Below, one piece after another: positions 1 through 18,945 of a stretch of DNA of 64,000 bases. The position numbers and the translations under genes are program-made. The DNA is from Sphingomonadaceae bacterium 3R27C6 (GTDB lineage: Bacteria > Pseudomonadota > Alphaproteobacteria > Sphingomonadales > Sphingomonadaceae), in NCBI GenBank assembly GCA_005503215.1, contig SCNS01000007.1:124001-188000 (forward strand). The letters are read 5' to 3'. Below the pieces are notes generated by a model. That model ran no database searches. It saw only the letters and a program-made list of their open reading frames with translations, and was not told the DNA's origin. Within the stretch, counting starts at the first letter, position 1. The number at the start of each line of letters is the position of its first letter.

Positions 1-1269
1 TTCGACCATGGCAAGACCGATTTTCCGATCCACGGCAAGCATCGCGGCGTCGCCTGCGCGAACTGCCATAAGTCCGGAACGAAGTTTCGTGCCGCGCCCG
101 CCGCCTGCGTTGCCTGCCATGTCAAAGACGACGTCCATCAAACCCGTTTCGGCAAGAACTGCGCCAGCTGCCACAGCGAAAGCGGCTGGAAGATCATCCA
201 TAAGTTCGATCACGCGGCGACCGGCTTTCAATTGGTCGGCGCGCATCAGACGGTTGCTTGCGCCGATTGCCATGTCGGCAATCGCTTCGCCGGGACGCCG
301 AAACAATGCGTCGCCTGCCACCTGGCGGACGATGTCCACAAGGGGCGCAACGGAACCGACTGTGCCAGCTGCCATTCGCAGCTGAGCTGGAAAGGCGCCC
401 TGTTCGACCATGAACGGACGCGTTTTCCGCTCGTCGGCCAGCATCGCACGGTTACCTGCACCGCCTGTCACGGCGCGCAGAACGAGCGGCTGCGTCCGCC
501 GATGCAGTGCGCCGCCTGTCACCGCAAGGACGATGTCCACAAGGGCGTCAACGGCAGTAACTGCGCCACCTGCCATTCGCCCGCGAGCTGGAAAGGCGCG
601 TTTTTCGATCACAACAAGGCGACGCGTTTTCCGCTGCTCGGTGCGCACAAGCGGGTGCGCTGCGCCACCTGCCACATCAAGCCTGTGCATAGCTTCAAAC
701 CATCGCGCGAATGCGCCGGGTGCCATGTCCGCCAGGATCCCCACCAGGGCAAGCTGGGGCGAAATTGCGCGGCGTGCCACACCCAGGACCGCTGGCGGCC
801 GGCGCCGGGCTTTCATCATGCCGCAACGCGCTTTCCGCTGACCGGCGCCCACAGCCGCGTCGCGTGCGCCGATTGCCACCGGAATATGCAATATCGCGCC
901 GCGGGTGTCACATGCGCCAGTTGCCACGCCGACATCGCGCACAAGGGCCGGTTCGGCACGCCAGCGAGGTGCGAGACATGCCACACGACCGCGCGCTGGA
1001 CCGGCGCGCGGTTCAACCATGATCGCACGGGTTTTTCGCTGACCGGCCGCCATGCCCGGCTCGCCTGCAACAGCTGCCACACCAGGCCGGCGGCGACCGC
1101 GCGGCTGCCGGTGGGCTGTTACGGCTGCCACAAGGCCGACGATCATCACGAAGGCCGTTTCGGCACGAAATGCGAAACCTGCCATGTCGGGGGCGACAGC
1201 TTCAAGACGGTGCGCGTCCCCGCGAACGCGCGCCGCCATCCGGATTTCGACGGGAGGCACCTGCGATGA
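1..1269 (+). CDS. Multiheme c-type cytochrome, at least 18 hemes (5' end outside window)
   Basis: The frame is open from base 1, so the N-terminus and signal peptide lie upstream. The visible 422 residues hold 18 CXXCH heme-binding motifs and almost no other structure. The motifs recur in a unit of about 60 residues: CxxCH, then DDVHKG-like, then CxxCH, then a W..(F)DH..T.FPL.G.H..V.C..CH stretch, roughly three hemes per unit, with extra histidines that could be distal ligands. Such proteins carry electrons in the periplasm or across the outer membrane. The stop overlaps the start of the next cytochrome (ATGA), which argues for one operon with the beta-barrel gene further down. The electron donor and acceptor cannot be read from the sequence. 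The call as a multiheme cytochrome is firm; the physiological role is inference. Confidence 0.93.
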   Translation, partial: FDHGKTDFPIHGKHRGVACANCHKSGTKFRAAPAACVACHVKDDVHQTRFGKNCASCHSESGWKIIHKFDHAATGFQLVGAHQTVACADCHVGNRFAGTPKQCVACHLADDVHKGRNGTDCASCHSQLSWKGALFDHERTRFPLVGQHRTVTCTACHGAQNERLRPPMQCAACHRKDDVHKGVNGSNCATCHSPASWKGAFFDHNKATRFPLLGAHKRVRCATCHIKPVHSFKPSRECAGCHVRQDPHQGKLGRNCAACHTQDRWRPAPGFHHAATRFPLTGAHSRVACADCHRNMQYRAAGVTCASCHADIAHKGRFGTPARCETCHTTARWTGARFNHDRTGFSLTGRHARLACNSCHTRPAATARLPVGCYGCHKADDHHEGRFGTKCETCHVGGDSFKTVRVPANARRHPDFDGRHLR

Positions 1270-1733
1270 TCAAAGCCTGGATCGCCCTGCTGGGCTGTTT
1301 CCTTGTCGCCGCGCTGGCGGCCGCGGCGACGTCCGATCCGCCGCCGATCAAGGTCATCGACCGCTATGACCATATCTCGACGGGGTTCGTGCTCGACGGG
1401 CGGCATGCCGAAATCGGCTGCGACACCTGTCACGCCAAGGCGGTGTTCCGCGGCACGCCGCGCACCTGCGCCGCCTGTCACAACAATGTCCGCGCCGAGG
1501 GCAAGACATTTCGCCACATCCCCACGACCGATGCGTGCGAAAGCTGCCATACCACCAAGGACTGGCTGACCGCGCGCTTCGACCACAGCGGCGTCGTGAC
1601 CAACTGCGTCAGCTGCCACAATAATTTCCAGGCCCCCGGCAAGACCGCCAACCACCCGCCGACCAGCAATCAATGCCAGGATTGCCACCGGGCGATCCAT
1701 TGGAACCAGCTGTTGCCGGGAGCGGCATTATGA
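1266..1733 (+). CDS. Small pentaheme c-type cytochrome, exported
   Basis: A 155-residue protein with an N-terminal signal peptide (hydrophobic residues about 4-21 ending in A-rich sequence) and five CXXCH motifs (CDTCH, CAACH, CESCH, CVSCH, CQDCH). It keeps the same H..I.TGF.L.G.H..I.C..CH grammar as the larger cytochrome upstream, so the two are probably related by partial duplication. Its ATG overlaps the stop of that gene by four bases, and its own stop overlaps the start of the beta-barrel gene, so translation is probably coupled. A periplasmic electron shuttle or the inner partner of an outer-membrane conduit is plausible. No catalytic motif beyond heme binding is visible. Confidence 0.88.
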   Translation: MIKAWIALLGCFLVAALAAAATSDPPPIKVIDRYDHISTGFVLDGRHAEIGCDTCHAKAVFRGTPRTCAACHNNVRAEGKTFRHIPTTDACESCHTTKDWLTARFDHSGVVTNCVSCHNNFQAPGKTANHPPTSNQCQDCHRAIHWNQLLPGAAL

Positions 1734-3886
1734 GCGCGCATGCCGCCTTCGAAGCCTTGCTCAAGATCGCGCTCGCGCTGTTACTGCTGTTTTGGGCGAG
1801 CCATGCCGGGGCACAGCGCGGCGGCGACAAGGTGTTGGCCGACGCGAGCGCCGCGGGCACCATCGACTGCCCGACCGTGACGATCCATTTCACGGGCCCG
1901 ATCCGTTACAGCGGCGCGGCCCCGACCGACCAGGGAATGGACGTGCGGCTGCGGGTCGAGATGGTGCAGCCCGGCGTTCGACCTAACCGCGATTTCCTGC
2001 CCGTGCCGGGCGGTACGCCGCTGGTCCGCTCTATTGTCTACGAGGCCGACGCCGTCGGCGGACCGGTGCTCGCGATCACTTTTCGCACGCTCACCCGCTT
2101 CGAAATCGCCTTGGGGCATGACTCGCAAAGCTTGGTGCTGTCGCTGCGCAACATCGCCCTTCAAGGCGGCTGTCCGGTCGAGCAGGCGGTGGACGGCGCC
2201 GTCGCGCCGCTGGACGGCGACGAATTGCGCCGCCTCCAGACCGTGGCCGAAGAGGCGGTGGCGGCGGGCCAATATGAAGCCGCCAGCGACGCGCTCGACC
2301 GCATCCTTGGCCAAGGCGACACCGATTATGCACCGCGCGCGCTGGAACTCAGCGGCATGATCCACGAACGCCGCGGCGAACGCGGGCCGGCGCGGCTGCG
2401 CTATGAGGAATATCTGCGGCGTTTTCCGGGCTCGCCGGGCGCCGATCGGGTCGAGCAGCGGCTGGCGGCGCTGGGCCGGGGCGGCGGGGGCGAGCCCGCA
2501 CGGCCGAGCGTGGAGGGGCGCGAATGGCGCACCACCTTCTCGGGCGGTCTTTCGCAATTTTATTCGCGCGATACCAGCCGCAATGTTTTCGTCGATGCGC
2601 GCCGGCCCGATCCGATCGAGGAGATCGACCGGCGCGTCAACATCGACCAGTTGCTGACCGCGATCGACATCAACATGGCGGCGACCAACGGCGAAATGCG
2701 GTTCAGCGCGCGCGCCGCCGGCAGCTATACGCTCGATTGGCGGCCGGTCACGCTTGTCGGCTCCTCGCGCAGCTCGGGCGACGACACCCAGCGCATCGCC
2801 GCGCTGTACATCGACACCCAGCATTATCGGCTTGGCCTTTCGGCGCGGATCGGGCGGCAGTCGCTGTTCGGTTCGGGGGTGTTCGGCCGGTTCGACGGCA
2901 TCCGTGCGGGATGGGAGATCGATCCGTCGTGGACGCTCCACGCGCAGGCGGGGCGCCCGGTCTTTTCGACCCGCACCGACCGGATCGAGCGGGACCGACG
3001 TTTCTACGGTTTCACGCTGGGCTATGCGCCGCGCGACAAGCCGTTCGAGCTCAACGCCTATTGGTTCGACCAGAAAAGCGGCGGGCTGACCGACCGGCAG
3101 GCGGTGGGCCTAGAGACGCGCTATAGCACGCCGGGCGTCGCTTTGTGGGGGCTGGTCGACTTCGACGTCGGCTTGGGCAAGCTCAGCCATGCCTTTCTGA
3201 ACGCCACCGTGCCGCTGCGGGGCGGGGGTAGCCTGGGCGTGCAATTCGACCAGCAATATTATCCCCGGCTCTCGCTCACCAACAGCGTGATCGGCCAGTC
3301 AGCGCACCGCCTCGGCGAGCTCAAGCGGCTGTTCACGCGCCAGACGCTGGAACAATGGGCGCGCGACCGGTCGGCACGAAGCCGCAGCTTGTCGGTGGTT
3401 TATACCCAGCCGCTGACACCAAAATGGCAGGCCAATCTCGACCTGGTCCTGTCGCGTACCGGCAGCACCCCGGCATCGGGCGGGGTCGATGCGATCGCGG
3501 GCAGCGGCACCGAAACTTATCTGGGCGTGCAGATGACGGGAAACGGCATCGTCAGGAAAGGCGACACGGTCATCTTCGGGCTGCGCCATGCGCGGACGGC
3601 TCGTTTCAACATCATTTCGCTCGATTCGGCGGCGCGCTTCCCCGTGGGGCCGGTCAGCGTCGAGCCGCGATTCCGCTTCGCGCGGCGCACCGATCGCTTT
3701 GGTCCGGGCCACCAAAATGCCTATCGCCCCAGCCTGCGCGTCACTTACGCCGCGTCGACGAAGGTCGCGCTGGACGCCGAAATCGGCTTCACCTTCCTCG
3801 ATGAACGATGGTCCGACGGGGCGTTCGTCGGCAAAAGCGAAGAGCGCGCGACGATCTTAAACCTTGGCTATCGTTTTTCGTTCTAG
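1730..3886 (+). CDS. TPR-containing outer-membrane beta-barrel protein next to multiheme cytochromes
   Basis: The 718-residue protein has a signal peptide (LLKIALALLLLFWASHAGAQ region), then an N-terminal periplasmic-looking domain. A helical TPR-like stretch follows at about residues 165-240 (the E..V.AGQYE.A...LD..L and R.RYEEYLRRFP.SP segments). From about 260 onward, alternating polar/apolar strands end in YRFSF, a typical outer-membrane terminal aromatic. I chose the ATG at 1730 because it overlaps the upstream stop as ATGA and precedes the signal peptide. Fixed linkage to two multiheme cytochromes suggests the barrel sheathes or docks a cytochrome, as MtrB/PioB-type porins do, but I see no clear MtrB signature. 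A role in exopolysaccharide export, which also uses TPR-barrel proteins, is the main alternative. Confidence 0.72.
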   Translation: MSAHAAFEALLKIALALLLLFWASHAGAQRGGDKVLADASAAGTIDCPTVTIHFTGPIRYSGAAPTDQGMDVRLRVEMVQPGVRPNRDFLPVPGGTPLVRSIVYEADAVGGPVLAITFRTLTRFEIALGHDSQSLVLSLRNIALQGGCPVEQAVDGAVAPLDGDELRRLQTVAEEAVAAGQYEAASDALDRILGQGDTDYAPRALELSGMIHERRGERGPARLRYEEYLRRFPGSPGADRVEQRLAALGRGGGGEPARPSVEGREWRTTFSGGLSQFYSRDTSRNVFVDARRPDPIEEIDRRVNIDQLLTAIDINMAATNGEMRFSARAAGSYTLDWRPVTLVGSSRSSGDDTQRIAALYIDTQHYRLGLSARIGRQSLFGSGVFGRFDGIRAGWEIDPSWTLHAQAGRPVFSTRTDRIERDRRFYGFTLGYAPRDKPFELNAYWFDQKSGGLTDRQAVGLETRYSTPGVALWGLVDFDVGLGKLSHAFLNATVPLRGGGSLGVQFDQQYYPRLSLTNSVIGQSAHRLGELKRLFTRQTLEQWARDRSARSRSLSVVYTQPLTPKWQANLDLVLSRTGSTPASGGVDAIAGSGTETYLGVQMTGNGIVRKGDTVIFGLRHARTARFNIISLDSAARFPVGPVSVEPRFRFARRTDRFGPGHQNAYRPSLRVTYAASTKVALDAEIGFTFLDERWSDGAFVGKSEERATILNLGYRFSF

Positions 3887-4032
3887 CGGCGACGAATAAT
3901 GGCGAGCGATGGCAGGCGAACATAGGCTGGCCGGCGTCTGCTTTTCACGAACTGCACCCAGAAGCCGACAATCCGCTACCGGTCAATGAAGGTGATCAGC
4001 GAACGCCGGTTCGCGCCAATCTGTCACGCCGC

Positions 4033-4167
4033 CTAGCAGTTGCCTTTAACCCCATCGGCACAGTCTGCAGCGGATTCAACGTCTTTTCCAGCTCCTTCAA
4101 CTGTGTTGCAAGCCGACAGAATCAACAGCGAGCTGCTGATTGCGAAAATTGTCAGAAGCTTTTTCAT
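4033..4167 (-). CDS. Entericidin-like small lipoprotein
   Basis: A 44-residue peptide: MKKLL start, a hydrophobic stretch and a lipobox LILSAC with the acylated cysteine at 19. A short N-T-V-E-G-A-G-K-D tail and two further cysteines follow. This is the pattern of the entericidin EcnA/EcnB family of membrane lipoproteins linked to stress and stationary phase. I chose the internal ATG at 4167, preceded by GGAGAGAGAGA, over an upstream ATG because it directly begins the signal peptide. It stands alone between the cytochrome cluster and a tRNA-like sequence, on the opposite strand. A possible general-stress (EcfG) promoter lies upstream at 4225-4249. Confidence 0.8.
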   Translation of the reverse strand: MKKLLTIFAISSSLLILSACNTVEGAGKDVESAADCADGVKGNC

Positions 4168-4224
4168 TCTCTCTCTCCGACGGCGAGGGCGAACCACCCT
4201 CCATTTGAGTTTCACTATTTTGAC

Positions 4225-4249
4225 AACAGCTGTTCGCAACGATCGTTCC
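4225..4249 (-). promoter_or_regulatory. Possible EcfG-type general stress promoter of the entericidin-like gene
   Basis: On the minus strand GGAAC (4249-4245) is followed after 16 bases by TGTTG. The alphaproteobacterial EcfG consensus, as known for the family, is GGAAC-N16/17-CGTT. The box lies about 60 bases upstream of the entericidin-like start codon. One base of the -10 element deviates, so this is a suggestion only. Confidence 0.35.
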
Positions 4250-4394
4250 GTTGCATCGGCGTCAAGCTGGCCGAAGCGTTCAAAATGATCGCTAGGCTGG
4301 GGGAGAATGAAAAGATCGGATGATATATTTGGCGGCGTTGATTTTCATCTTTTCGGCGTAATACCAGTGGCTTGGATAAGAAAGGCGGGCTCTG

Positions 4395-6966: not shown

Positions 6967-8559
6967 ATGATCGACCTGCGGAAGGCACTGGCGGCGGCGC
7001 AGGCCTATCGCGCCGCGGCCGAGGCGGCGCTTGCCGAACGGCTGGCGCAGGCGCCGATCGACCGCGAGCAGCGTGCGGCGCACGGCTTTGCGTGGGTCGC
7101 GACGACGGTCGCGGCGCTCGACGCTGTGCTGAGCTGGTGCGAGTCCGGCCGGGCGACGAACCCGCTCGATGCGAAGGTCGCGGTGCTCGCCTTTGCCGAG
7201 GGGATCGGCCAACTCGTCGGCGGGCTGCCGATGGGGCAGAATGAGATTTTCCGTCCGGCCGACCTTGGGGTGGGTGTCGAGGCGCGCGCGCTCGCCGGCG
7301 CCTGCGCCGGGTTGCTCGACGCTGATCATGCGGCGACGCGCGCCGATGTCGCGGCCGCGCTCGCCGAGGGGCATTGGCCAAGCGAGACGTTGCACGACGC
7401 CGATCTCGATTCGATCCGCGACCAGTTTCGCCGCTTCACCGATGCCGAGATCGTTCCGCACGCGCATGGCTGGCACCTCGCGAACGACCTGATCCCCGAC
7501 GACACCGTGCAGGCGATGGCCGACCTCGGCACCTTCGGCGTATGCATTCCCGAGGCGTTCGGCGGGCTGGGGCTGTCGAAGCTGGTGATGTGCATCGTCA
7601 CCGAGGAATTGTCGCGCGGCTGGATCGGCGCGGGCTCGCTCGGCACGCGGTCCGAGATCGCGGGCGAACTGATCGCGACGGGGGGCACCGACGCGCAAAA
7701 GGCCGAGTGGCTGCCGCGGATCGCGAGCGGCGAGATACTGCCGACCGCGGTGTTTACCGAGCCCGATGTCGGATCGGACCTCGGCTCGCTCCAGACGCGC
7801 GCGCGCCGCGACGGCGATCATTGGGTGATCGACGGCGCGAAGACCTGGATCACCCACGCCGCGCGCTCGGACCTGATGACGCTGCTCGCGCGCACCATGC
7901 CCGACGCCAAGGGCTATGCCGGCCTGTCAATGCTGCTCGTCCCCAAGCCGCGCGGCACCGACGACAATCCCTTCCCCGCCGCCGGGATGAGCGGCAGCGA
8001 GATCGAGGTGCTCGGCTATCGCGGGATGCGCGAATATGCGTTGCAGTTCGACGCGATGACGGCACCCGCCGACGCGCTGCTCGGCGGCGAAGAGGGGCAG
8101 GGGTTCAAGCAGCTCATGCGCACCTTCGAGGGCGCGCGCATCCAGACCGCCGCGCGTGCGGTCGGGGTGGCGCGGCGCGCGCTCGAGCTCGGGCTGGACT
8201 ATGCGCTCAGCCGCAAGCAGTTCGGCAAGGCGATCGTCCATTTCCCGCGCGTCGCCGACAAGCTCGCGATGAGCCTCGTCGATTTCGTCGTCGCGCGCGA
8301 GCTCAGCTATGCCGCGGCGCGCGCGAAGGACAGCGGCAAGCGCTGCGATATCGAGGCGGGGATGGCGAAGCTGCTCGCCGCGCGCGCCGCCTGGTCGAGC
8401 GCCGACGCCAGCCTGCAGATCCATGGCGGCAACGGCTATGCGCTCGAATATGAGATCAGCCGCGTGCTGTGCGACGCGCGCATCCTCAATATCTTCGAGG
8501 GCGCAGCCGAGATTCAGGCGCAGGTGATCGCGCGCGGGCTGGTCGCCGGGCGCAACTAG
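6967..8559 (+). CDS. Acyl-CoA dehydrogenase family protein with N-terminal extension
   Basis: The ATG at 6967, two bases after the thiolase stop, gives 530 residues; an upstream in-frame ATG would sit inside the thiolase gene. About 130 residues of Ala-rich helical sequence precede the ACAD core. The core shows the N-domain (F.VCIPEAFGG.GLSKL), the flavin-binding FTEPDVGSDL and W.I.GAKTWITHA, and the C-domain ending NIFEGAAEIQAQVIA, whose Glu is the expected catalytic base. It oxidises an acyl-CoA thioester with FAD and passes electrons to ETF. The stop overlaps the convergent lyase gene in a shared CTAG. Extended ACADs of this type are known, but the substrate is unassigned. Confidence 0.9.
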   Translation: MIDLRKALAAAQAYRAAAEAALAERLAQAPIDREQRAAHGFAWVATTVAALDAVLSWCESGRATNPLDAKVAVLAFAEGIGQLVGGLPMGQNEIFRPADLGVGVEARALAGACAGLLDADHAATRADVAAALAEGHWPSETLHDADLDSIRDQFRRFTDAEIVPHAHGWHLANDLIPDDTVQAMADLGTFGVCIPEAFGGLGLSKLVMCIVTEELSRGWIGAGSLGTRSEIAGELIATGGTDAQKAEWLPRIASGEILPTAVFTEPDVGSDLGSLQTRARRDGDHWVIDGAKTWITHAARSDLMTLLARTMPDAKGYAGLSMLLVPKPRGTDDNPFPAAGMSGSEIEVLGYRGMREYALQFDAMTAPADALLGGEEGQGFKQLMRTFEGARIQTAARAVGVARRALELGLDYALSRKQFGKAIVHFPRVADKLAMSLVDFVVARELSYAAARAKDSGKRCDIEAGMAKLLAARAAWSSADASLQIHGGNGYALEYEISRVLCDARILNIFEGAAEIQAQVIARGLVAGRN

Positions 8560-9719
8560 AGCCAGAGCAAGGGCTGGCGCACCGGGAAGTTGCGCACGAC
8601 CTCGCCGATCGTCGGATCGGGGTTGAGGCGCTGCCACAGGTCCAGCCAGTCGCTACGTTTCTGCGCCATCCCGCCAAAGAGCAGGCTCGGCTGGCGCACC
8701 GGGAAGCCGTCCCAATATTCGATGTCGGGCGGCAGCGGCCATTGGCTCTTGTCGGCGATGAACGGCGCCATCCACGCGATCGCGCCGCCGATTGAGCGGC
8801 CGTCGGGGGTCTTCCAGCCGATCAGTTCGCTGCCCCCAAGCAGCCACGCCGACGCGGCGAGCACGTCGAGATTGAAGAGCGAATAGGCATAGGGCTTGGT
8901 GCGCGCGAGTTCGAGCGGCTGGCGGCCATCGGGCTCGATCTGCGTCGGGATGATCACGGTCTGGAGCCGGCCCCGCGCATCGGCGAGGACGTCGGTGCGG
9001 CCGAGCAATGCAGCGAAGGACGCCGCCTGCAGCAGCCAGCAGGTGCCGTGGTTGTTCTTTTCGTCGCGTTCCTCGGTGCCGAAGCGCGAGGTGGTGAGCC
9101 AGTCCAGATAGGCGGCGAACCAGCCCTCGACGCCCGCGCGGATCGCCGCATAGCCCGGCGCGCCTTTACGAGCGAACAGTGCGGCGGCGCGCGCGACCTC
9201 GACGATCTGCAGCGTGTCGATCACGCCGATCGCGCGGCCGCGGTTCACGCCGATGATCGCCTGCGCGTGGTCGAGGTTCGGGTTCATCCGCGTCTTCGCA
9301 TCGACGAGCCACGCGTGGAGGTGGCGCATCGCGGCGTCCGCGAAGCGCGCTTGGCCGGTGAGGTCCCACAGCGCCGCCAGCGCGGGGACGGTGCGGCCGA
9401 AGGCGATCAGCGCGTCGCGGTGGCCGTCGAACTTGTCGGGGTTCGAGCGGCCGTCGCGGCGCACATAGGGACCGCCGGGGTGCGCCGGGTCGGGCCACCA
9501 ATAATCGCCCTCCGAATAATAGTCGTGCGGCCCCGCCGGGCTGCGCGGCGCGGGGATTGCCGCGATGGTACGCGGTTTAGCGCCGAGCAGCGCTGCGGCT
9601 TGCGGCAGCAGGCGGCGGCGCTCGATCGCGCGGATGTCGAGCGCGCCGGGCCGCTGGCGTGCCCATGCTGCGGGCGCCATCAGCAGTGCGGTAAGGAGCA
9701 GGGAACGGCGCGCGATCAT
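8556..9719 (-). CDS. Alginate lyase family (PF05426-like) polysaccharide lyase, exported (1)
   Basis: A 387-residue protein with a twin-Arg-like/Sec signal (MIARRSLLLTALLMAPAAWA) and the hallmark YYSEGDYWWPDP motif at 67-78, a GGPYVRRDG segment and NNHGTCW at 222-228. The Asn-His pair corresponds to the catalytic region of alginate-lyase A1-III-type (alpha/alpha) toroid folds. These enzymes cleave beta-1,4-linked uronic acid polymers by beta-elimination. The sequence style resembles PL38 glucuronan lyases as much as true alginate lyases, so alginate versus glucuronan is open. It is the last gene of the TonB receptor-lyase-lyase operon, 9 bases after the paralogue. Confidence 0.85.
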   Translation of the reverse strand: MIARRSLLLTALLMAPAAWARQRPGALDIRAIERRRLLPQAAALLGAKPRTIAAIPAPRSPAGPHDYYSEGDYWWPDPAHPGGPYVRRDGRSNPDKFDGHRDALIAFGRTVPALAALWDLTGQARFADAAMRHLHAWLVDAKTRMNPNLDHAQAIIGVNRGRAIGVIDTLQIVEVARAAALFARKGAPGYAAIRAGVEGWFAAYLDWLTTSRFGTEERDEKNNHGTCWLLQAASFAALLGRTDVLADARGRLQTVIIPTQIEPDGRQPLELARTKPYAYSLFNLDVLAASAWLLGGSELIGWKTPDGRSIGGAIAWMAPFIADKSQWPLPPDIEYWDGFPVRQPSLLFGGMAQKRSDWLDLWQRLNPDPTIGEVVRNFPVRQPLLWL

Positions 9720-9728
9720 TGGTTGTGC

Positions 9729-10964
9729 TTACCGGCTGCGATGGCGCAGCAACAGATCGCCGCCGATGCTGCGCGGATAGGCGCCGGGACCCCAGGCGTC
9801 GTCGGCGCGCACGAGCAGCGCGTCGAGCGTGTCGGCGGGCCAGCCTTGCTCCTTATACGGCCAGTCGGCGGCGCGGCGGCGCCAGGCGGCGACATAGTCG
9901 GTCGCCCCCCGCAGCGAGCGGCCCTTTTCCTCCGCGCGGTAGAGATCGATGCCGAGGCACGCCGCACTATCCGCGACCGTATAGGCGGCACCCAGCGCAT
10001 AAAGCGAATAATGGAAACTGCGCGTGCGGGTCAATTCCTCGGGCAGCGCACCCGATGCGTCGACCTGCAGCGCGAGCCGGACCTTGGGAAAGGCCGTGAC
10101 GATCTTGCGCGCGATCTCGGGGCGCCGCGCGAATAGCGCAAAGCGTGCGACTTGCGCATCGTACCAGAGGCCGTGATTGTTCGAGGCCTTGCCCTCGGCC
10201 TTGCCGTTCGGGCTTTTCAGCATCCAGTCGAGATAGCGCGAAAACCAGCCTTCGAGCCCGGCCGTTTCTGCTGTCGTCAGCGCCCCCGACGGCGCGACCA
10301 ACCCCGCAGCGTCGATCACGCCGATAAAGCTCGCGCCGTCGAGCACGCCCTCCGGCCGGCCGTTCGATACCCCGGGCACCGCTTGCGCAAAATTCATGTT
10401 CGGGTTCATGCGCGTGGCGGGATCGAGGAACCACGTGCGGATCACCCGCGCCGCGCCCTCGGCATATTTACGCTCGCCGCTGTAATAAAAGGCAAGCGCG
10501 AGCGTGTCGGCGTCGCGCGCCATGCGGCTGAGCGCCGAGCGGTCGAAGCGGTTGCTTTCGATGTCGGGATTGGTGTCGCCGTCGCGGCGCACATAGGCGC
10601 CCTTCGGATTGGCGGGGTTCGGCCACCAATAGCGCGCAAGGCTGACATAATCGTGGCGGTCGCCCGACACGGGAATGCCGCGCTTGTCCATCACCGACGC
10701 GGGCTTTGCCGCAAGCGCCTTGTCGGCGCGCGCGATCAACTCGCGGTAGGCGGCGCCGATCGCCGGATCGGTGGGCAGCGCCGCCTTGATCGCCTCGAGA
10801 TCGGCGGGGCGCAGCGTGAAGGTGCGGCGCCCGTCGAACGAGGCTGAATAACCCTCGCTCGCATCGCATGCGGGCGCCGGGGAAAAAGCCGCCGCCGCGG
10901 ACGGAAATGACGCGGCGGCGGCCAGTATAGCCCAAGGGAGTCGGGCTAAAGTCGCTGGCTTCAC
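9729..10964 (-). CDS. Alginate lyase family (PF05426-like) polysaccharide lyase, exported (2)
   Basis: I chose a GTG start at 10964 because it overlaps the TonB receptor stop as GTGA and leads straight into a signal peptide (LPWAILAAAASFPSAAAAF). That gives 411 residues. It carries RYWWPNP (111-117), KGAYVRRDGDTNPD, RMNPNMNFAQAVPG and NNHGLWYD (262-269), the same active-site landmarks as its neighbour. The two paralogues are clearly diverged, so they may split endo and exo roles or act on different linkages. Product would be unsaturated uronate oligosaccharides, the substrate type of the GH105-like hydrolase encoded upstream. Polymer specificity is inferred only from context. Confidence 0.86.
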   Translation of the reverse strand: MKPATLARLPWAILAAAASFPSAAAAFSPAPACDASEGYSASFDGRRTFTLRPADLEAIKAALPTDPAIGAAYRELIARADKALAAKPASVMDKRGIPVSGDRHDYVSLARYWWPNPANPKGAYVRRDGDTNPDIESNRFDRSALSRMARDADTLALAFYYSGERKYAEGAARVIRTWFLDPATRMNPNMNFAQAVPGVSNGRPEGVLDGASFIGVIDAAGLVAPSGALTTAETAGLEGWFSRYLDWMLKSPNGKAEGKASNNHGLWYDAQVARFALFARRPEIARKIVTAFPKVRLALQVDASGALPEELTRTRSFHYSLYALGAAYTVADSAACLGIDLYRAEEKGRSLRGATDYVAAWRRRAADWPYKEQGWPADTLDALLVRADDAWGPGAYPRSIGGDLLLRHRSR

Positions 10965-13891
10965 AGGCGGACCCGGAAGCCGAAGAAATATTGCGGGCCG
11001 CTGCGCGACACCTCCGCGATGCTGTCGTATCCGCCCTTGTACATGATATCCTGCGTGTTCGTGACGTTGAGCGCCTGCAGCTTGACCTGAACATTCTTGG
11101 TAAGGTCGTACTGCGCCGACAGGTTGAGATAGGTGCCACCGCGGATCTCGCGGTTGGTGCCGCCGTTCGGCTTGTAATAACCCGAGCGGTAACGGAGGTT
11201 CGCGCGGAGCGAGAGGCCCCATTTTTCGAACCACAAAGATCCGCTCGCGGTCCATTTCGACAGCCCGATCAGGTTTGCCGGATCGACATAGTCTGCGATC
11301 GGCGAGGTGTCGGGATATTCGAAATTGGCGAAGGCACGGTTAACCGATCCCTGCACGCCGAAGCCGTCGAGCGGATCGGGAAGCCAGGTGAAGGCATGGC
11401 TCGCGGTGGCCTCGACCCCATAGAGATGGCGTGTTTCGGTGTCGTTCGTCGGGGCCACCGGCGCGATGGTGACGGTTTCGGTCACCGGCGCGCCGCCGTC
11501 GCGGATCGTCGTGATCGTGACGTCGGTGGGGATCGGCTCTTCGGCGCTGATGACCGTGCCCTTTGCCCATTTATAATAGCCCGCGACCGAGATCAGCGTG
11601 TCCTGCGAGGCGTACAGCTCGAGGCTGGCGTCGAGGTTCCACGCGCGCAGCGGCTTGAGGTTCGGGTTGCCCGTCGTCGCGTTGAAGATGATGTTGTCGA
11701 CCCCCGTCGCCGAGGTCGTCGGGTTGAGGCTCACCCCCGCGCCGAAGCTTTCGATCCCCGATCGCGCGATGGCGCGATAGGCGGCGAGGCGCAATTTGAC
11801 CTCTTGCGAAAGGTCGAAGGCGATGTTCGCCGACGGCAGGAAATAATTATAGCTGCCCTTCACGCGGTTCGTTTCGAGCGGGCGGGTCGGGTCGACACCG
11901 ATCGAATAGGTGTCGCCCGCGGTGTCGATGGTGATGCGATAGGGCTGGCGGAAACCGATCGACGTGATGTCGGTCTTGACCCAGCGCAGCCCGACGTTGC
12001 CGCTGAACGGCACGTTGCCCATGTCGGACTCGAAATTCGCCATCGCATAGGCGGCGTAGATGCGTTCGGTGACGTCGATGTCGCTTGGGTCGCGGCCGTC
12101 CTCGGGCGTGGGCAGGGCATCGTCGCTGCCGGTGAAGGTCCGGAACAGGCAGTCGTTGTCGAACGTTGCCCAGCGCGTCACATTTGTCCCCATGCCCTTC
12201 ATGTAAGAGGTGGTGGTGAAGGGGACGCGGCACTGCTGGTTCGCCTGCGCAATCAGCTGCGCCGGCGTCTGGCCGTTGATCGCGGCCAGCGTATTGAGGT
12301 CGTTGTTGCGCGCATTGTCGTTGGTGCGATTGTGGTCGGAGACGCGGCCCCCGAACTTCACGCTGGTGATAAAGCCGTCGAACTCGCGGTCGATGTCGAG
12401 CCGCGCGGCCCAGATCCGGTCGGTGCGGTCGGTGACGAAGCGCCGCCGCGCATAGACCGCGTTGGCTGCGTTCGCGAGGAAAAGGTCCGGGTCGGTGATG
12501 TCGAAATTGTCGAACGCGACCACCGGCACGACATCGTCGTCCATATAGGTCAGCGTATAGCCGACGCGGCGCGTCGAGCGCATGCGCGTCTGTTTCTGCA
12601 TCTCGGTGCGGTGGCTGTTCGAATAGGAGGCGTCGAACGCGACGTTCCAGCGGTCGGGCGACCAGATCAGGCTCAAGCCGCCGCCCAGATATTCCTCGAC
12701 GCGCCGCCGCGTTTCGAGCTGGTTTTCGAGGTTCGAATTGCCGCGATAGCTCATCAGCGCGCCGGGCGAATAGCCGTTGTCGCCGTTGCCGATGACCAGC
12801 GGCTGGACCCCGCGGAGCCCTTCGGTGATGCCGAGCACGTTGCGGTCCTCGAGGCTGTTGCGCTTCGAATATTGGCCGTCGATCGCGATTTCGAACTCGG
12901 GCGAAGGGCGCCACTGGATCGCGCCGATCAGCCCGTCGCGGACTTCGGACGTTTGTTGGGTGCGGAAGCTGCGCGAGGTATTGGCGAAATAGGCGGGTCC
13001 GCGCGTTTCGCCGACGACGACGGGCGGGGTGCCGGCGCTGCGCGGACCGGTGGCGAAGGTGCAATTCTGGTTGGCACCCGCACCCGTCTGCACAGCGGTC
13101 GAACCCGTCAGCTGGAAGGGATTGTTCGCCGAGGTGTTGCAGAGCTGGAAGGTCGAATTGGCGTTATAATAATCCTCGGGCGCGGTCGTGTCCTGCCGCT
13201 GGTAACCGATCGACACGCCGATATCGCCGAGCCCGGTTTCGAACTGGTCGGTATAGGAAAAATTGGCGCGATAGCCGAGCCCGTCGTGCTGATAGACGTC
13301 ATTGTCCTGCGGCTGGAAATCGCCGCGCACCTCGAACTGGATGCGGCGCTTGCCATAATCGAGCGGCTTCATCGACCGGAGTTCGATTACCCCGCCGACG
13401 CCGCCTTCGAGGAAATCGGCGCGCTGGGTTTTGTAGACGAGCACGCCGTTGACGAGTTCGGACGGGAATTGCTGGAAGGCGACCGAACGGTCGGGGCCCG
13501 CGGTCGACACCTCACGCCCGTTGAAGGTCGAAAAGCTCAGGGTCGGGCCAAGGCCGCGCACCGACAGTTCGTTGGCGTTGCCCTTGAAGCGGTCGGCCGA
13601 GACGCCGACGATGCGTTCGAGCGTGTCGCCGACCGAATTGTCGGGGGTCGCGCCGATTTCGTCGCTGACGAGGCCGTCGACGACGACGTCGGCGGCGCGC
13701 TTGAATTCGATAGAGCTGCGCTGCGTCGCGCGGGTGCCGGTGACGAGGATTTCGTCGCCGTCATCGACCGCCGCCGCCTGTTCGCTTTCGATTTCGGCGG
13801 GGGCTTCCTGCGCCCACGCCGGCATCGCAGTAAATAGCGCAGCGGACGCCAGCAGGGCGGCGCGGGTCGGCAAGGCCGATGGTGACTTCAT
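10961..13891 (-). CDS. TonB-dependent outer-membrane receptor for uronate oligosaccharides
   Basis: A 976-residue receptor with a signal peptide cut near AWAQ and a TonB-box-like EILVTGTR. A plug domain (SVGDTLERIVGVSADRFKGNANELSVRGLGP) and a 22-strand-type barrel follow, ending in FGFRVRL. The long plug-to-barrel style fits the Caulobacter/Sphingomonas subfamily of large TonB receptors. It heads an operon with two polysaccharide lyases and so probably imports their oligosaccharides. SD GAGAGGGAA precedes the ATG. Its upstream region has two GntR-type half-palindromes and one LacI-like palindrome overlapping a TTGACA -35 element, so it looks doubly controlled. Confidence 0.93.
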   Translation of the reverse strand: MKSPSALPTRAALLASAALFTAMPAWAQEAPAEIESEQAAAVDDGDEILVTGTRATQRSSIEFKRAADVVVDGLVSDEIGATPDNSVGDTLERIVGVSADRFKGNANELSVRGLGPTLSFSTFNGREVSTAGPDRSVAFQQFPSELVNGVLVYKTQRADFLEGGVGGVIELRSMKPLDYGKRRIQFEVRGDFQPQDNDVYQHDGLGYRANFSYTDQFETGLGDIGVSIGYQRQDTTAPEDYYNANSTFQLCNTSANNPFQLTGSTAVQTGAGANQNCTFATGPRSAGTPPVVVGETRGPAYFANTSRSFRTQQTSEVRDGLIGAIQWRPSPEFEIAIDGQYSKRNSLEDRNVLGITEGLRGVQPLVIGNGDNGYSPGALMSYRGNSNLENQLETRRRVEEYLGGGLSLIWSPDRWNVAFDASYSNSHRTEMQKQTRMRSTRRVGYTLTYMDDDVVPVVAFDNFDITDPDLFLANAANAVYARRRFVTDRTDRIWAARLDIDREFDGFITSVKFGGRVSDHNRTNDNARNNDLNTLAAINGQTPAQLIAQANQQCRVPFTTTSYMKGMGTNVTRWATFDNDCLFRTFTGSDDALPTPEDGRDPSDIDVTERIYAAYAMANFESDMGNVPFSGNVGLRWVKTDITSIGFRQPYRITIDTAGDTYSIGVDPTRPLETNRVKGSYNYFLPSANIAFDLSQEVKLRLAAYRAIARSGIESFGAGVSLNPTTSATGVDNIIFNATTGNPNLKPLRAWNLDASLELYASQDTLISVAGYYKWAKGTVISAEEPIPTDVTITTIRDGGAPVTETVTIAPVAPTNDTETRHLYGVEATASHAFTWLPDPLDGFGVQGSVNRAFANFEYPDTSPIADYVDPANLIGLSKWTASGSLWFEKWGLSLRANLRYRSGYYKPNGGTNREIRGGTYLNLSAQYDLTKNVQVKLQALNVTNTQDIMYKGGYDSIAEVSRSGPQYFFGFRVRL

Positions 13892-13937
13892 TTCCCTCTC
13901 CTTTTTTTACGCCGCTTCTGGCGACGGCGACCCGGCG

Positions 13938-13951
13938 TGATACCGGTGTCA
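13938..13951. promoter_or_regulatory. LacI-type palindromic operator candidate upstream of TonB receptor
   Basis: TGATACCGGTGTCA is palindromic except for one position, with a central CpG as in LacI/GalR-family operators. On the minus strand it reads TTGACACCGGTATCA, so it overlaps a consensus -35 hexamer 47-62 bases upstream of the receptor start. Similar boxes occur at 15336 and 63519. Confidence 0.5.
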
Positions 13952-13958
13952 ATTTTAG

Positions 13959-13989
13959 ATGTCATACAACTTACGAGATGTATTACAAC
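13959..13989. promoter_or_regulatory. Tandem GntR-type operator candidates upstream of TonB receptor
   Basis: ATGTCATACAAC (centre 13964) and ATGTATTACAAC (centre 13983) each carry the TGT-N3-ACA core typical of FadR/UxuR-subfamily operators. They are spaced 19 bases apart, about two helical turns. The same core, with better flanks, recurs at 15383, 63449 and 63469. The local FCD regulator at 17573 is the natural candidate ligand. Confidence 0.5.
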
Positions 13990-14029
13990 TTTAAGAAGGC
14001 AAGTCAATCGCCCGCGGTGTGGGGCGGAT

Positions 14030-14057
14030 ACGGGCCGGTCAAGGTGGACCGGCCCGT
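14030..14057 (-). terminator. GC-rich hairpin after the GH105-like gene
   Basis: An 11-bp perfect stem (ACGGGCCGGTC / GACCGGCCCGT) with a 6-base loop sits just beyond the stop at 14064. It lies between two genes transcribed in the same direction. There is no T-run after it, so it may be a Rho-assisted or partial terminator. Confidence 0.5.
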
Positions 14058-14063
14058 TCTATA

Positions 14064-15215
14064 TCAACGCTTTACGCGCTTTTTCGACAAGTCGTACATC
14101 GCGGTGCCGGCGAGCAGATAGGCACCGCTTCCGTAAAATTGCGTCTCTTTCGCCGAGACGCTGTCGGGACGGTCGCCGACTTGCTGGACCCAGCCGAGCA
14201 TCCCGTCGGGCTGCACCGCGCGCTGCAGCGCATCCCATCCGCGCACCGCGGCGGGCTCGTATGTCGCGCGGTCGAGCAGGCCGTTGTCGACGCCCCACGC
14301 AAAGGCATAGGTGAAGAAGGCGGTGCCGCTCGATTCGGGCGGGGTGCCGGGATCCTGGTCGAGCAGCGAGGCCGGCCAATAGCCGTCGGCCTTTTGCAGC
14401 GTGACCAGCTTTGCCGACATGTCCCTGAACAATTTCTCGTAGATGGGCCGCTTCGGATCCTTCTTGTCGATCACCTGCAGCATCCGCACGAGGCCGCCCA
14501 TCACCCAGCCGTTGCCGCGGCTCCAGAACAGCTTGCGCCCCTTGGCGTCGCGCATGTCGAAAAAGCGGCTGTCGCGGAAATAGAGATTTTCCGACGGGTC
14601 GAAGAGATAGTCGGTCGTCGCCTTGAATTCCTCATGCGCGAAATCGGCATAGCGCTTGTCGCCGGTCGCCGTCGACAGCCGCAGCAGGGTCGGCGGCGCC
14701 ATGAACAGCGCGTCGCACCAGCACCAGCGGTCGGTGCATGTCGACGTGTTCTTGCCCGGCGCGACGGGGATGAATTCGAGGCCGATCGTCGGCCGATTGG
14801 CGAGGACGTTGTCGAAATACGCCTTCGTCGGGGCGATCGCGTCCTTGCCCGCGCCGCTCTGCGCCGCCCACAGCCACGCCTGCCCGATGAGCTGGTCGTC
14901 GGCGTGATAGGCGAGGTCGCCGAGCTGCCATTTCTCGGCGCGGCCGAGATCGAGCAGTGGCTGCGCATATTTTTTGTCGCGGCTCGCGAGTTCGGTCAGC
15001 GCGACCCAGAAGGTCGCCTGCTGCCAGTCGCGCACTTCCTGCACGCTCTTGCGCGCCGCGGGCATCGTCGCCCAGTTGGTGCGGTTCGCGAGCTGCCAGT
15101 CGGCGACGCGGCGCGTCTGCGCGAGGATCGCCGCGGGCTGGGGCATCGCGGGTTCGGCGGGCGCCACCGCGGCGGCGGGGGCGGTCATCATCAGGGCAAA
15201 AAGGCTCAGCGGCAT
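14064..15215 (-). CDS. GH105/GH88-type unsaturated uronyl hydrolase, exported
   Basis: A 383-residue alpha6/alpha6-barrel hydrolase. The ATG at 15215 is preceded by GAAGGAAACGCC and opens a signal peptide (residues 1-19); an upstream ATG at 15350 would overlap the promoter region and give a non-signal start. Landmarks are HADDQLIGQAW (104-113), WCWCDALFMAPP (164-175, Asp168 the likely proton donor), RGNGWV and SSGTAFFTYAFAWG. The family hydrates the double bond of unsaturated uronyl residues left by lyases, releasing them from oligosaccharides. It is divergent from manD and upstream of the receptor-lyase operon, so it fits as the step after the lyases. GH88 versus GH105 is not settled by motif alone. 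Confidence 0.88.
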   Translation of the reverse strand: MPLSLFALMMTAPAAAVAPAEPAMPQPAAILAQTRRVADWQLANRTNWATMPAARKSVQEVRDWQQATFWVALTELASRDKKYAQPLLDLGRAEKWQLGDLAYHADDQLIGQAWLWAAQSGAGKDAIAPTKAYFDNVLANRPTIGLEFIPVAPGKNTSTCTDRWCWCDALFMAPPTLLRLSTATGDKRYADFAHEEFKATTDYLFDPSENLYFRDSRFFDMRDAKGRKLFWSRGNGWVMGGLVRMLQVIDKKDPKRPIYEKLFRDMSAKLVTLQKADGYWPASLLDQDPGTPPESSGTAFFTYAFAWGVDNGLLDRATYEPAAVRGWDALQRAVQPDGMLGWVQQVGDRPDSVSAKETQFYGSGAYLLAGTAMYDLSKKRVKR

Positions 15216-15335
15216 GGCGTTTCCTTCACGGCAACAAGGGGCGACCAGCGAAAGGAGGCACGCTTGCGGCAAGCGGGATGCATCTGGCGCTGCGCATCGC
15301 GTTTCCTCTCCCATGGAGGTGTCGGCCTTTTGCCT

Positions 15336-15349
15336 TGACACCGGTGACA
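15336..15349. promoter_or_regulatory. LacI-type palindromic operator candidate in manD/GH105 divergent region
   Basis: TGACACCGGTGACA is palindromic but for one base and overlaps a TTGACA hexamer (15335-15340) facing manD. It matches the box upstream of the first TonB receptor. The 207-base divergent region is otherwise non-coding. Confidence 0.5.
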
Positions 15350-15382
15350 TATGTCTTTCCTTTTGGATCGAGTGTCAATAAG

Positions 15383-15395
15383 GTTGTCACACAAC
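15383..15395. promoter_or_regulatory. GntR-type operator candidate upstream of manD
   Basis: GTTGTCACACAAC has perfect 5-base half sites (GTTGT / ACAAC) around CAC. It lies 27 bases before the manD ATG, where a repressor would block transcription. It is the best-conserved copy of the motif found upstream of both TonB receptors. Confidence 0.55.
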
Positions 15396-15422
15396 TAAGC
15401 CATGCGGCGATGAGGGGATGGA

Positions 15423-16634
15423 ATGCCGAAGATCGTGTCAGCCCGGGTGATATTGACCGCGCCGGGCCGCAATTTCACGACGTTGAAGATCGAGTGCGAC
15501 GACGGGACGACCGGCGTCGGCGATGCGACGCTCAATGGCCGCGAGCTCGCGGTCGCGGCTTATCTGTCGGAGCATGTCGTCCCCTGCCTGATCGGGCGCG
15601 ACGCGCACCGCATCGAGGATATCTGGCAATATCTCTACAAGGGTGCGTACTGGCGGCGCGGCCCGGTGACGATGGCGGCGATCGCCGCGGTCGACATGGC
15701 GCTGTGGGATATCAAGGGCAAGGTCGCCGGACTGCCGGTCTATCAGCTGCTCGGCGGTGCCGCGCGCGAGGGCTGCATGGTCTATGGCCACGCCAATGGC
15801 ACGACGATCGACGACACGATCGAGGCGGCGCTCGATTACCAGCGGCAGGGATATAAGGCGATCCGCCTGCAATGCGGCGTGCCCGGAATGGCATCGACCT
15901 ATGGCGTCAGCAAGGACCGCTATTTCTACGAGCCCGCCGACAATGACCTGCCGACCGAAAATGTCTGGTCGACCGCGAAATATATGCGAATCGTCCCCGA
16001 ACTGTTCGCGGCGGCGCGCGAGGCGCTCGGCTGGGATGTCCACCTGCTTCACGACGTCCACCACCGCCTGACCCCGATAGAGGCGGCGCGGCTTGGCAAG
16101 GATCTCGAGCCCTGGCGTCCCTTCTGGATCGAGGATGCGACCCCGGCCGAGGATCAGGAGGCGTTCCGCCTGATCCGCCAGCATACGACGACGCCGCTCG
16201 CGGTCGGCGAAATCTTCAGCTCGATCTGGGACTGCAAGGCGCTGATCGAAAACCGGCTGATCGACTATATCCGCGCCACCGTGCTCCACGCGGGCGGCAT
16301 CACGCATATGCGGCAGATCGCCTCGCTCGCCGATCTCCACCAGGTCCGCACCGGTTGCCACGGCGCGACCGACCTGTCGCCGGTGACGATGGCGGCGGCG
16401 CTGCACCTTGGGCTTTCGATCCCCAATTTCGGGATCCAGGAATATATGCGCCACACGGACGAGACCGACGCGGTCTTTCCGCACGCTTATCGCTTTGCGG
16501 ACGGCATGCTCCATCCGGGCGACGCACCCGGCCTCGGCGTCGATATCGACGAGGCGCTCGCCGAATCCTTTCCTTATGCCCGCGCCTATCTGCCGGTGAA
16601 CCGGCTCGAGGACGGAACGATGTGGAGTTGGTAA
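15423..16634 (+). CDS. manD: D-mannonate dehydratase, enolase superfamily (ManD)
   Basis: A 403-residue cytoplasmic enzyme whose landmarks align one-for-one (offset +1) with the characterised Novosphingobium ManD as I recall it. Metal ligands are Asp211, Glu237 and Glu263; acid/base residues are His213 (HDVHH), Tyr160 and His313 ([11 protein letters not shown]). It dehydrates D-mannonate to 2-keto-3-deoxygluconate in the glucuronate branch of hexuronate catabolism. Its presence argues that the polymer of this locus contains glucuronate rather than only mannuronate/guluronate. It is first in an operon with the DUF4861 gene (stop and start overlap as TAATG), under predicted GntR and LacI-type boxes. 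The related D-gluconate dehydratase activity is an alternative. Confidence 0.9.
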
Positions 16635-17539: not shown

Positions 17540-17572
17540 CCAGCTTCGCGGCGCGATGATAACGCAGCATCC

Positions 17573-18280: not shown

Positions 18281-18392
18281 CCGCCTGCCCGATATTGCGC
18301 GCTATTGATCGGTGCGATTGGGTGCCGAACGCGTGCCCCAGAACGGGCCGCGCAGGAAATTAGCTATCTACTGACCTTGATTTCGACTCGTG

Positions 18393-18890
18393 ATGCTCTA
18401 TTCCAACCCCGTGCAAGGCGACCCCGACAATTACATAAGCCTGCTGTCTGCCGCGCAGATCGAAACGCTGCGGCACGTTTACGAGCACAAAAATTCCAAG
18501 CAGATCGCGCGGCTGATGAACGTTTCGCCGCACACCGTCGACGAACGCGTGCGTCGCGTGTTAAAAAAACTTAATGTTTCCAACAGAATAGAAGCGGCGC
18601 GCATCCTTGCTGTTAACGGTGTCTTCGATCATGTTACCCCTTATCAGCCTTTGACATATCAATTGATCGACCTTGGCGACGTATCTCCGCCCCCCGATGC
18701 GGAAGCGGGGCGCAGTTCGTTTCGGCGATTTTTCGATATAGGTTCGCCATTTCCTACCGCGTCCCAGCCGGCCAACCGGCATGGGTTGATGGAAAGGATA
18801 ATCTGGCCGATTTTGATCGCTTTTGCGACAATCCTGGCCTTCTCCGCCCTCTATTCGATCCTTGTCGGACTCGGTCGTGTTCTGACCTGA
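18393..18890 (+). CDS. LuxR-type HTH protein with C-terminal membrane segment
   Basis: A 165-residue protein: residues 18-75 form a LuxR/GerE helix-turn-helix (LSAAQIETLRHVYEHKNSKQIARLMNVS.HTVDERV..VLKKL.V.NR.EAAR). A Pro-rich linker follows, then one hydrophobic helix at about 133-160 near the end. A GTG directly before the ATG is an alternative start. There is no receiver domain. A DNA-binding head tethered to the membrane by a C-terminal tail is unusual but recurs in sphingomonads and related groups as far as I know. Target genes are unknown; the four-gene stretch 18393-20293 may act together. Confidence 0.78.
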   Translation: MLYSNPVQGDPDNYISLLSAAQIETLRHVYEHKNSKQIARLMNVSPHTVDERVRRVLKKLNVSNRIEAARILAVNGVFDHVTPYQPLTYQLIDLGDVSPPPDAEAGRSSFRRFFDIGSPFPTASQPANRHGLMERIIWPILIAFATILAFSALYSILVGLGRVLT

Positions 18891-18899
18891 TGTTCGAAC

Positions 18900-18934: not shown

Positions 18935-18945
18935 CAAGGAAAAAG

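Follow-up and report, generated by a model that had tools for sequence, protein, structure and literature searches.

The 64 000-nucleotide window analysed here comprises positions 124001–188000 of contig SCNS01000007.1 of Sphingomonadaceae bacterium 3R27C6 (contig C51 of genome G000 in our coordinates). At its left end it carries an operon of a Sphingopyxis-like bacterium that is cut by the window start. The best overall explanation of this operon, to which we assign a probability of about 0.75, is a compact PCC3-type porin–cytochrome conduit, and such a conduit is likely to cross the outer membrane. The cluster begins upstream of the window and contains genes for a flavoprotein oxidoreductase (FeSFAD), an inner-membrane protein (IMP), a 21-heme cytochrome (MHC1), a second cytochrome with five heme motifs (MHC2) and a porin with a tetratricopeptide-repeat (TPR) domain, and we propose that the five products act together. 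Because the gene content, the gene order, the 21 hemes and the IMP motifs (17/17) match, the set is assigned to PCC3 with high confidence as far as sequence features can tell. The system is real, conserved and already known in kind. Three of its features go beyond the PCC3 literature covered: the minimal MHC2, the linked FeSFAD and a modelled 22-strand barrel of TonB-receptor size with a TPR domain.

Gene set, order, coupling, conservation, motifs and heme-motif counts were read directly from the DNA, using the window together with a fetched stretch (L002) that includes 16 kb upstream of it (window position = L002 position − 16000). The IMP, MHC1, MHC2 and porin genes are all adjacent on the plus strand and overlap by TGATG (IMP/MHC1) or ATGA (MHC1/MHC2 at 1266–1269 and MHC2/porin at 1730–1733); FeSFAD is also present and is divergent from IMP (Table 1). 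A sequence-only reading of the window had described three translationally coupled genes with ATGA junctions for an 18-or-more-heme cytochrome, a 5-heme cytochrome and a large outer-membrane barrel with a TPR domain, in the architecture of porin–cytochrome complexes. All of this is confirmed: 339 bases of the MHC1 gene precede the window, so that 18 of its 21 CxxCH motifs lie inside and three outside, and a multiheme gene stands beside the barrel gene in all 22 barrel loci examined. A promoter-like site (ATGACA-17-TATAAT, 11/12; L002 14692–14720, minus strand) precedes FeSFAD in the divergent intergenic region, and two such sites were found in the 701 bases scanned against 0.3 expected from shuffling. 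An RNA switch at the locus was rejected, as an Rfam search over 9 kb gave no RNA match. Downstream of the porin, one 82-residue reading frame and no other is kept in the stretch 3887–4328.

Table 1. Features of the cluster in window, contig and L002 coordinates; porin domains are those of the AlphaFold2 model.
Feature	Window	Contig	L002	Strand	Remark
FeSFAD, 472-residue oxidoreductase		G000:C51:121024-122442	13024-14442	minus	outside window
IMP, 296 residues		G000:C51:122772-123662	14772-15662	plus	upstream of window
MHC1, 535 residues, 21 CxxCH	1-1269 (3' part)	gene start G000:C51:123662	15662-17269	plus	
MHC2, 155 residues, 5 CxxCH	1266-1733		17266-17733	plus	
Porin, 718 residues	1730-3886		17730-19886	plus	
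Porin N-terminal beta domain	about 1835-2152				residues 36-141
Porin helical TPR-like domain	about 2216-2479				residues 163-250
Porin C-terminal barrel, 22 strands	about 2528-3880				residues 267-717
Downstream stretch	3887-4328				right edge of block common to four Sphingopyxis carriers

MHC1 has a hydrophobic N-terminus (signal or anchor), is organized as about seven 3-heme modules and matches Pfam Cytochrome_C7 with an E value of 2.4e-25 (hmmscan; query with three extra N-terminal residues). Its motif number is far above chance, since CxxCH occurred on average 0.29 times, and at most three times, in 2000 shuffled versions of the protein, and all 21 triads are invariant in 16 aligned sequences (G000 and the near-copy H053 included). 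A scan of the source genome with PF14522 listed two other loci and missed this gene despite the hmmscan match, so that misses in that scan mean little. The protein has 25.5 residues per heme, the published PCC3 values being 22–39 with a median of 26, and 21 is also the published median heme number of the PCC3 periplasmic cytochrome (PMC5566968). In Gallionellaceae this subunit has 21, 24 or 27 hemes, numbers argued to be enough to span the periplasm (PMC10734462). Across 13 intact loci we counted 21 motifs in one, 24 in ten and 27 in two (coefficient of variation 0.06). The heme statistics leave out G821 and G530, in which the cluster is split over two contigs (24 and 21 motifs in MHC1, respectively), the loci cut by contig ends (G1074, G1066, G1099, G1001 and G354), the near-copies H053, LC81 and G1236, and a second MHC2-like gene of G819.

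MHC2 has a hydrophobic N-terminus and a heme spacing of 16-23-23-23; the mature protein would have ∼134 residues and a mass of ∼14.7 kDa, or 17.8 kDa with five hemes. It ends soon after the fifth heme and lacks the C-terminal repeats of its relatives. Compared with 15 other N-terminally intact proteins (14 species, two proteins being from G819), it matches the N-terminal module best in every one, at 37–48% identity, and a first heme spacing of 16 residues is common to all 16 second cytochromes, that of G000 included. Judged by these alignments, the Sphingopyxis MHC2 corresponds to the N-terminal module of the longer PCC3 cytochromes and represents a minimal PCC3. In contrast to the nearly fixed MHC1 number, the CxxCH counts of MHC2 in the 13 intact loci are 5, 11, 11, 17, 26, 27, 27, 33, 34, 54, 59, 62 and 62 (coefficient of variation 0.62). 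Printed numbers are 10–35 for the second cytochrome in Gallionellaceae (PMC10734462), 10–57 for the PCC3 cytochrome subunits of one Leptothrix group (PMC13386937) and up to 85 (PMC5566968). By its authors' wording a high heme count is usual but not required for the PCC3 second cytochrome, and with only five CxxCH in MHC2 the cluster is therefore filed as a PCC3 variant. The second MHC2-like gene of G819, with 13 hemes, lies directly 3' of the porin gene (L054 12316–13473).

IMP of this strain contains five hydrophobic segments, and two WX3HX13H motifs and one SGXXG motif are present in all 17 aligned IMPs, three of them from Sphingopyxis. The PCC3 inner-membrane protein was described in the same terms, with ∼300 residues, five transmembrane helices, two WX3HX13H and one SGXXG (He et al., 2017; PMC5566968). 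By its motifs, IMP carries a di-heme b signature and is a five-helix membrane protein of the di-heme b type. It gave no match to Pfam, PF01794 included, at an E value of 1, and its model gave no Foldseek match at 0.001; the structural match to cytochrome b561 and SpNOX has a Z score of 8.4 and a root-mean-square deviation (r.m.s.d.) of 2.6 Å over 114–115 residues.

The porin, which has a hydrophobic N-terminus, was modelled with AlphaFold2 from 22 aligned sequences (mean pLDDT 78, pTM 0.56). The 22 strands of its barrel were counted from DSSP elements, with 661–665 and 668–674 taken as one strand, and the backbone diameter is about 40 Å by formula with an assumed shear number. In a VIA-align search with residues 268–718 the seven top rows are TonB-dependent or SusC-type receptors (Z scores 16.7–18.2, r.m.s.d. 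4.2–5.7 Å, 354–386 residues; PDB 5t3r is one that we take to be a SusC-type receptor). The barrels of TonB receptors enclose a plug some 150 residues long. Mature MHC2 with its five hemes is of similar size, and we therefore propose that the 5-heme module sits inside the barrel, where, on this model, it could fit. The TPR match of this porin lies under the Pfam cut-off (TPR_14, 20.7 versus 23.5 bits); the porin family profile finds TPR structures (CpoB, E value 1.7e-6), TPR_9 matches 15 of the 22 barrels and a BamD-type model matches 17. The alignments thus indicate that the TPR domain is a family-wide trait of the PCC3-type porin. Generic OMP_b-brl models match some relatives (4/22 and 2/22), as does SPOR (4/22).

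The absence of an MtrB/PioB signature from the barrel, remarked on in the sequence-only reading, extends to the whole family, as none of the 22 members matches MtrB_PioB (PF11854) at an E value of 0.01; the seven weak PF11854 matches in the source genome all lie below the cut-off and away from this locus. MtrB is absent among the 50 best rows listed of Foldseek and of VIA-align, which is not evidence against an MtrB fold. Assignment to MtrB/PioB, to polysaccharide export or to another named porin family was rejected, since this barrel gave no match to any barrel family of Pfam or NCBIfam. Two observations had been named as ones that would speak against a conduit, namely a barrel family that occurs without cytochromes and a barrel too narrow for a cytochrome. 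What was found is a multiheme neighbour at every barrel locus examined and, in the model, a wide barrel resembling those of TonB receptors.

FeSFAD combines a ferredoxin part with a flavoprotein part that is nearest in the PDB to YpdA and to thioredoxin/ferredoxin-NADP reductases. None of 13 homologs has a CxxC behind residue 130, and 12 of them contain YRxx(A/S)FxR, which resembles HRRxxxR, the NADPH-binding motif of thioredoxin reductase. In the second ferredoxin motif a His replaces a Cys in 13/13 (CIGHGAC) and in the first a Ser replaces a Cys in 9/13 (Cys in this strain); from their motifs, the clusters may have unusual ligands. The gene lies within about 7 kb of the cluster in 16 of the 22 loci (14 if the near-copies H053 and LC81 are set aside), the fetched stretch covering only part of it in G997 and G870; it is mostly divergent from IMP and follows the porin in G717 and G530. 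In the loci without it the contig ends in the cluster (G354, G1001, G1066, G1074 and G1099) or 3 kb past IMP (G1056), and no FeSFAD was found on the fetched downstream side (at least 7 kb) of G354, G1056 and G1066. Of 259 phylum genomes, four have full-length matches (at least 691 bits) and all four carry PCC3; one more genome has a partial match of 218 bits. The four carriers supplied profile rows and at most six candidates were scored per genome, and the informative half of the result is the absence elsewhere. Two other species have apparent cytochrome c maturation genes, recognized by eye (CcmF, CcmH and others), in the interval that separates FeSFAD from the PCC3 genes (L010 3988–7015; L056 6259–10560). 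The source genome has a CcmF-like cytochrome c maturation gene at 560 bits, just under the 569-bit cut-off.

Carriage of the cluster is rare. A porin search of named contigs found near-identical loci in Sphingopyxis sp. H053 (96% barrel identity) and LC81 (94%) and no others, and barrel searches, with the source genome counted each time, found carriers among 4 of 80 genomes of the genus, 1 of 119 of the family and 3 of 385 of the class. In the phylum sample, 10 of 398 genomes pass an E value of 1e-5 with the barrel profile, six of them strongly (at least 188 bits); the other four give short matches of 24–29 bits over 91–216 positions and are outside the 22 loci examined. The profile also found 11 of 200 genomes in the order of G717 and 5 of 149 in the family of G470; the phylum, order and family samples share some genomes. 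With the IMP profile, 45 of the 398 phylum genomes pass 1e-5, six at 181 bits or more and the other 39 at 57 bits or less, the range in which a porinless IMP of the source genome (at L007, described below) also scores. The six genomes with a strong barrel match are the same six with a strong IMP match (two candidates were scored per genome for the barrel and up to six for IMP). In the barrel tree the Sphingopyxis and other alphaproteobacterial sequences group together (99/98) on a long stem, the root being for drawing only. Erythrobacter belongs to Sphingomonadales. The view that extracellular electron transfer is unusual in sphingomonads stands as far as rarity goes, although the trait is not unheard of, since a Mn(II)-oxidizing Erythrobacter sp. 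is among the listed PCC3 holders (PMC5566968). As presented in its report, a Sphingopyxis terrae genome was named for acetate genes and not for a conduit (PMC8258643).

The block common to the four Sphingopyxis carriers extends from about L002 12740–12975 to window 4314–4328 (from a blastn comparison of the three others with the window and L002), where the alignment among carriers breaks. A phage-type integrase gene lies just to the left of the block in G000 (L002 11222–12601, minus strand) and a matching stretch is present in LC81; the left-flank sequence fetched for the remaining two carriers contains no such gene. Because this neighbour is patchy and the flanks differ between carriers, the block seems to be acquired or lost as one unit. 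A tRNA-anchored island was rejected, as the 20 kb of L002 contain no tRNA, and so was plasmid origin, as IMP had no match at 1e-5 in PLSDB, a search from which records very near the source genome may be left out. In all four carriers the five genes are retained, with identical overlaps and with lengths that hardly differ. Omega (dN/dS) between G000 and the three others is 0.04–0.24 in the 11 of 15 gene comparisons that are free of gaps (0.04–0.11 for MHC2), with no internal stops, the remaining four values being left out owing to alignment gaps. By these substitution patterns the cluster is under purifying selection.

In the path that we propose, FeSFAD would oxidize NAD(P)H at the cytoplasmic face through FAD and then two ferredoxin-like clusters, and electrons from FeSFAD, or from quinol, would pass to the two b hemes of IMP and across the inner membrane. 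MHC1 would carry them on across the periplasm, docked beneath the pore by the TPR domain, and MHC2 would fill the barrel as a surface-exposed plug that passes them out. Heme loading, the plug position, the docking, the NAD(P)H link and the outward direction are inferred. The fixed heme number of MHC1 and the free number of MHC2 fit an MHC1 that spans the periplasm and an MHC2 that ends in open space. The extra C-terminal MHC2 hemes of other species would reach outwards; they are absent here, so that the partners served could only be soluble ones or ones in direct contact (metal ions or chelates, quinones, shuttles). NAD(P)H has an even chance of being the inner partner, and is plausible because FeSFAD is nearby and because the trio of FAD/Fe-S protein, IMP and cytochrome recurs at L007. 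Electron flow may be outward, or the role one of redox balancing, towards which we lean with slightly less than even confidence: NAD(P)H is of low potential, which makes the outward direction downhill, and both PCC3 clusters of Sideroxydans lithotrophicus ES-1 go down on Fe(II), as reported in PMC8788666, which speaks against Fe(II) oxidation as a general role. More tentatively still, PCC3 in general might be a five-part machine from cytoplasmic NAD(P)H, and not from quinone alone, to the surface, with FeSFAD as fifth subunit, the TPR domain as dock and a 5-heme plug, of which Sphingopyxis would have the minimal version with the plug only.

The strongest competitor, somewhat improbable in our estimate, is a conduit that works inwards, in which an outside donor [Fe(II), Mn(II) or reduced organics] feeds MHC2, MHC1, IMP and the quinone pool, while FeSFAD makes NAD(P)H by reverse flow or as a side branch. 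He et al. drew PCC3 in this direction (PMC5566968), and the Mn(II)-oxidizing Erythrobacter would suit it; it is also favoured by the 26 complete and 11 partial PCC3 sets in Gallionellaceae iron oxidizers (PMC10734462) and by the rise of one PCC3 IMP gene of Sideroxydans CL21 in cells able to oxidize iron (PMC12442390). The response of ES-1 to Fe(II) opposes it, as does the distribution of PCC3, which is found in few known iron oxidizers and mainly in organisms not known to carry out metal redox reactions (PMC5566968). A flavoprotein of the NAD(P)H type would, moreover, run downhill only outwards unless coupled to the proton-motive force. The origin of LC81, as described in PMC4223462, cuts both ways, as this strain came from an extremely nutrient-limited cave site and was not isolated from the residue, rich in iron and manganese, in which another strain of that study originated.

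A periplasmic redox buffer or reductase, in which MHC2 stays inside, the barrel admits a small substrate and the two cytochromes reduce or oxidize it in the periplasm, is unlikely. In its favour, MHC2 here lacks an additional outer chain of hemes, solutes as large as siderophores could pass through a barrel of these dimensions and the Pfam and PDB matches of the barrel are generic. Yet the constant multiheme neighbour of the barrel, the homologous second cytochromes with up to 62 hemes, which are hard to explain inside the periplasm, and the common N-terminal module, which argues for one docking site, all point the other way. That the short MHC2 is a truncated remnant of an imported, non-working PCC3 would account for the missing C-terminal repeats, the patchy carriage (4/80) and the integrase gene beside the block in two of four carriers, but is largely refuted by the selection pattern, the conserved lengths and overlaps and the 21 of 21 intact MHC1 heme motifs, and is highly improbable.

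Besides the findings in Gallionellaceae and CL21, which favour inward flow, several points weigh against a compact outward conduit. The five hemes of MHC2 fall below every printed second-cytochrome number that we met (10–85), and a copy so poor in hemes might act differently or remain periplasmic. The filing as PCC3 is by features and gene order, the named ES-1 proteins being compared by description only, and no biochemical test of PCC3 was found in the literature covered. The cluster types of FeSFAD are uncertain because His and Ser replace Cys in the ferredoxin motifs. Nine of 13 FeSFAD homologs have a clear hydrophobic helix at the N-terminus, but the protein of this strain does not (best 19-residue mean 1.27), which makes its anchoring in the membrane doubtful. 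In G470 and G821 the FeSFAD gene is 4–7 kb away, with other genes between. The IMP model is middling (pLDDT 72), and its match to b561 and SpNOX is below the level at which helical-bundle matches can be trusted, with unrelated helical proteins ranked higher. For the porin, the VIA-align scores of 18-strand porins and FimD-like ushers come to within 2 Z units of those of the TonB receptors, and Foldseek matches generic barrels only (TMq 0.16–0.34); because these matches are unspecific, the strand number depends on the DSSP assignment of one model with a pTM of 0.56.

Since 2017 PCC3 has figured among the possible iron oxidases. A short natural PCC3 in cultured Sphingopyxis relatives offers a small system for expression, and the accompanying flavoprotein of the NAD(P)H type is a concrete candidate for the inner partner; the minimal second cytochrome and the linked flavoprotein together give PCC3 a testable mechanism. 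If MHC2 is indeed a plug, a fixed wire of 21–27 hemes and an outer part of 5–62 hemes would explain the odd heme numbers of the family.

Further genes of the source genome may bear on electron transfer. At L007 9176–14554 (G000:C52, about 28.2–33.6 kb) there is a second IMP system, with no porin gene seen beside IMP, that consists of an 848-residue flavoprotein frame (two cNMP-binding stretches and ferredoxin domains), a 293-residue IMP carrying the same motifs and a cytochrome with 10 hemes and, by eye, an FHA-like N-terminus. A multiheme cluster at L006 6996–16716 (G000:C3, about 87.0–96.7 kb) encodes a 1430-residue 10-heme protein with LVIVD repeats, a 643-residue protein that is barrel-like by eye (no Pfam match), a 656-residue lipoprotein-like protein and a 4-heme cytochrome c554-type protein, and is possibly a further electron-transfer system. 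Elsewhere in the window, two neighbouring and mutually similar secreted-looking proteins (8556–9719 and 9729–11255, minus strand) adjoin a TonB-receptor-like gene (10961–13891), and by eye this is perhaps a polysaccharide-use locus.

Among known systems, the cluster is closest to PCC3, for which the examples are Slit_0867–0870 and Slit_1446–1449 of S. lithotrophicus ES-1; the suggestion of a new conduit class is accordingly dropped, since PCC3 as described by He et al. (2017; PMC5566968) accommodates the cluster. Slit_1446–1449 have the same gene order (IMP, 21/24/27-heme cytochrome, second cytochrome, porin), and the ∼300-residue five-helix IMP with two WX3HX13H and SGXXG, the low number of residues per heme and the repeat-built cytochromes are shared. 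The differences are a second cytochrome with five hemes instead of the printed 10–85, a barrel that models as 22 strands against the 'up to 42' transmembrane regions in print, and the nearby FeSFAD gene and the porin TPR domain, neither of which the main text of He et al. connects with PCC3. That main text, figures and supplements apart, contains neither 'TPR' nor 'tetratricopeptide', and its 'oxidoreductase' passages are not tied to PCC3. No report of a 5-heme second cytochrome, FeSFAD or a porin TPR domain in PCC3 was found in the open literature covered, and the figures or supplements of He et al. may already include a Sphingopyxis, a member with few hemes or the FeSFAD gene.

PCC4 and the porinless IMP–cytochrome clusters share an IMP with the same motifs and heme c proteins, and a further redox protein gene was noted in PCC4 and in most porinless IMP clusters (He et al., PMC5566968); PCC4, however, has three periplasmic cytochromes (4, 5 and 10 hemes) and no extracellular one, whereas two (21 and 5) are found here. 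NADPH oxidases and proteins with a ferric reductase transmembrane domain (FRD) follow the same logic from NAD(P)H through flavin and two b hemes to the outside; their HX13H pairs were compared by He et al. (PMC5566968), and IMP has a weak structural match to SpNOX and b561. They differ in that the flavoprotein here is separate, YpdA/FNR-like and equipped with a ferredoxin domain, that IMP lacks a Pfam match (PF01794 included) at an E value of 1 and that electrons would continue along c hemes. MtrCAB, MtoAB and PioAB are alike in principle, combining a barrel with a multiheme cytochrome thought to lie inside it; the present barrel is not homologous to MtrB/PioB by profile (0/22), and the cluster has 21- and 5-heme cytochromes in place of a decaheme one and IMP in place of CymA.

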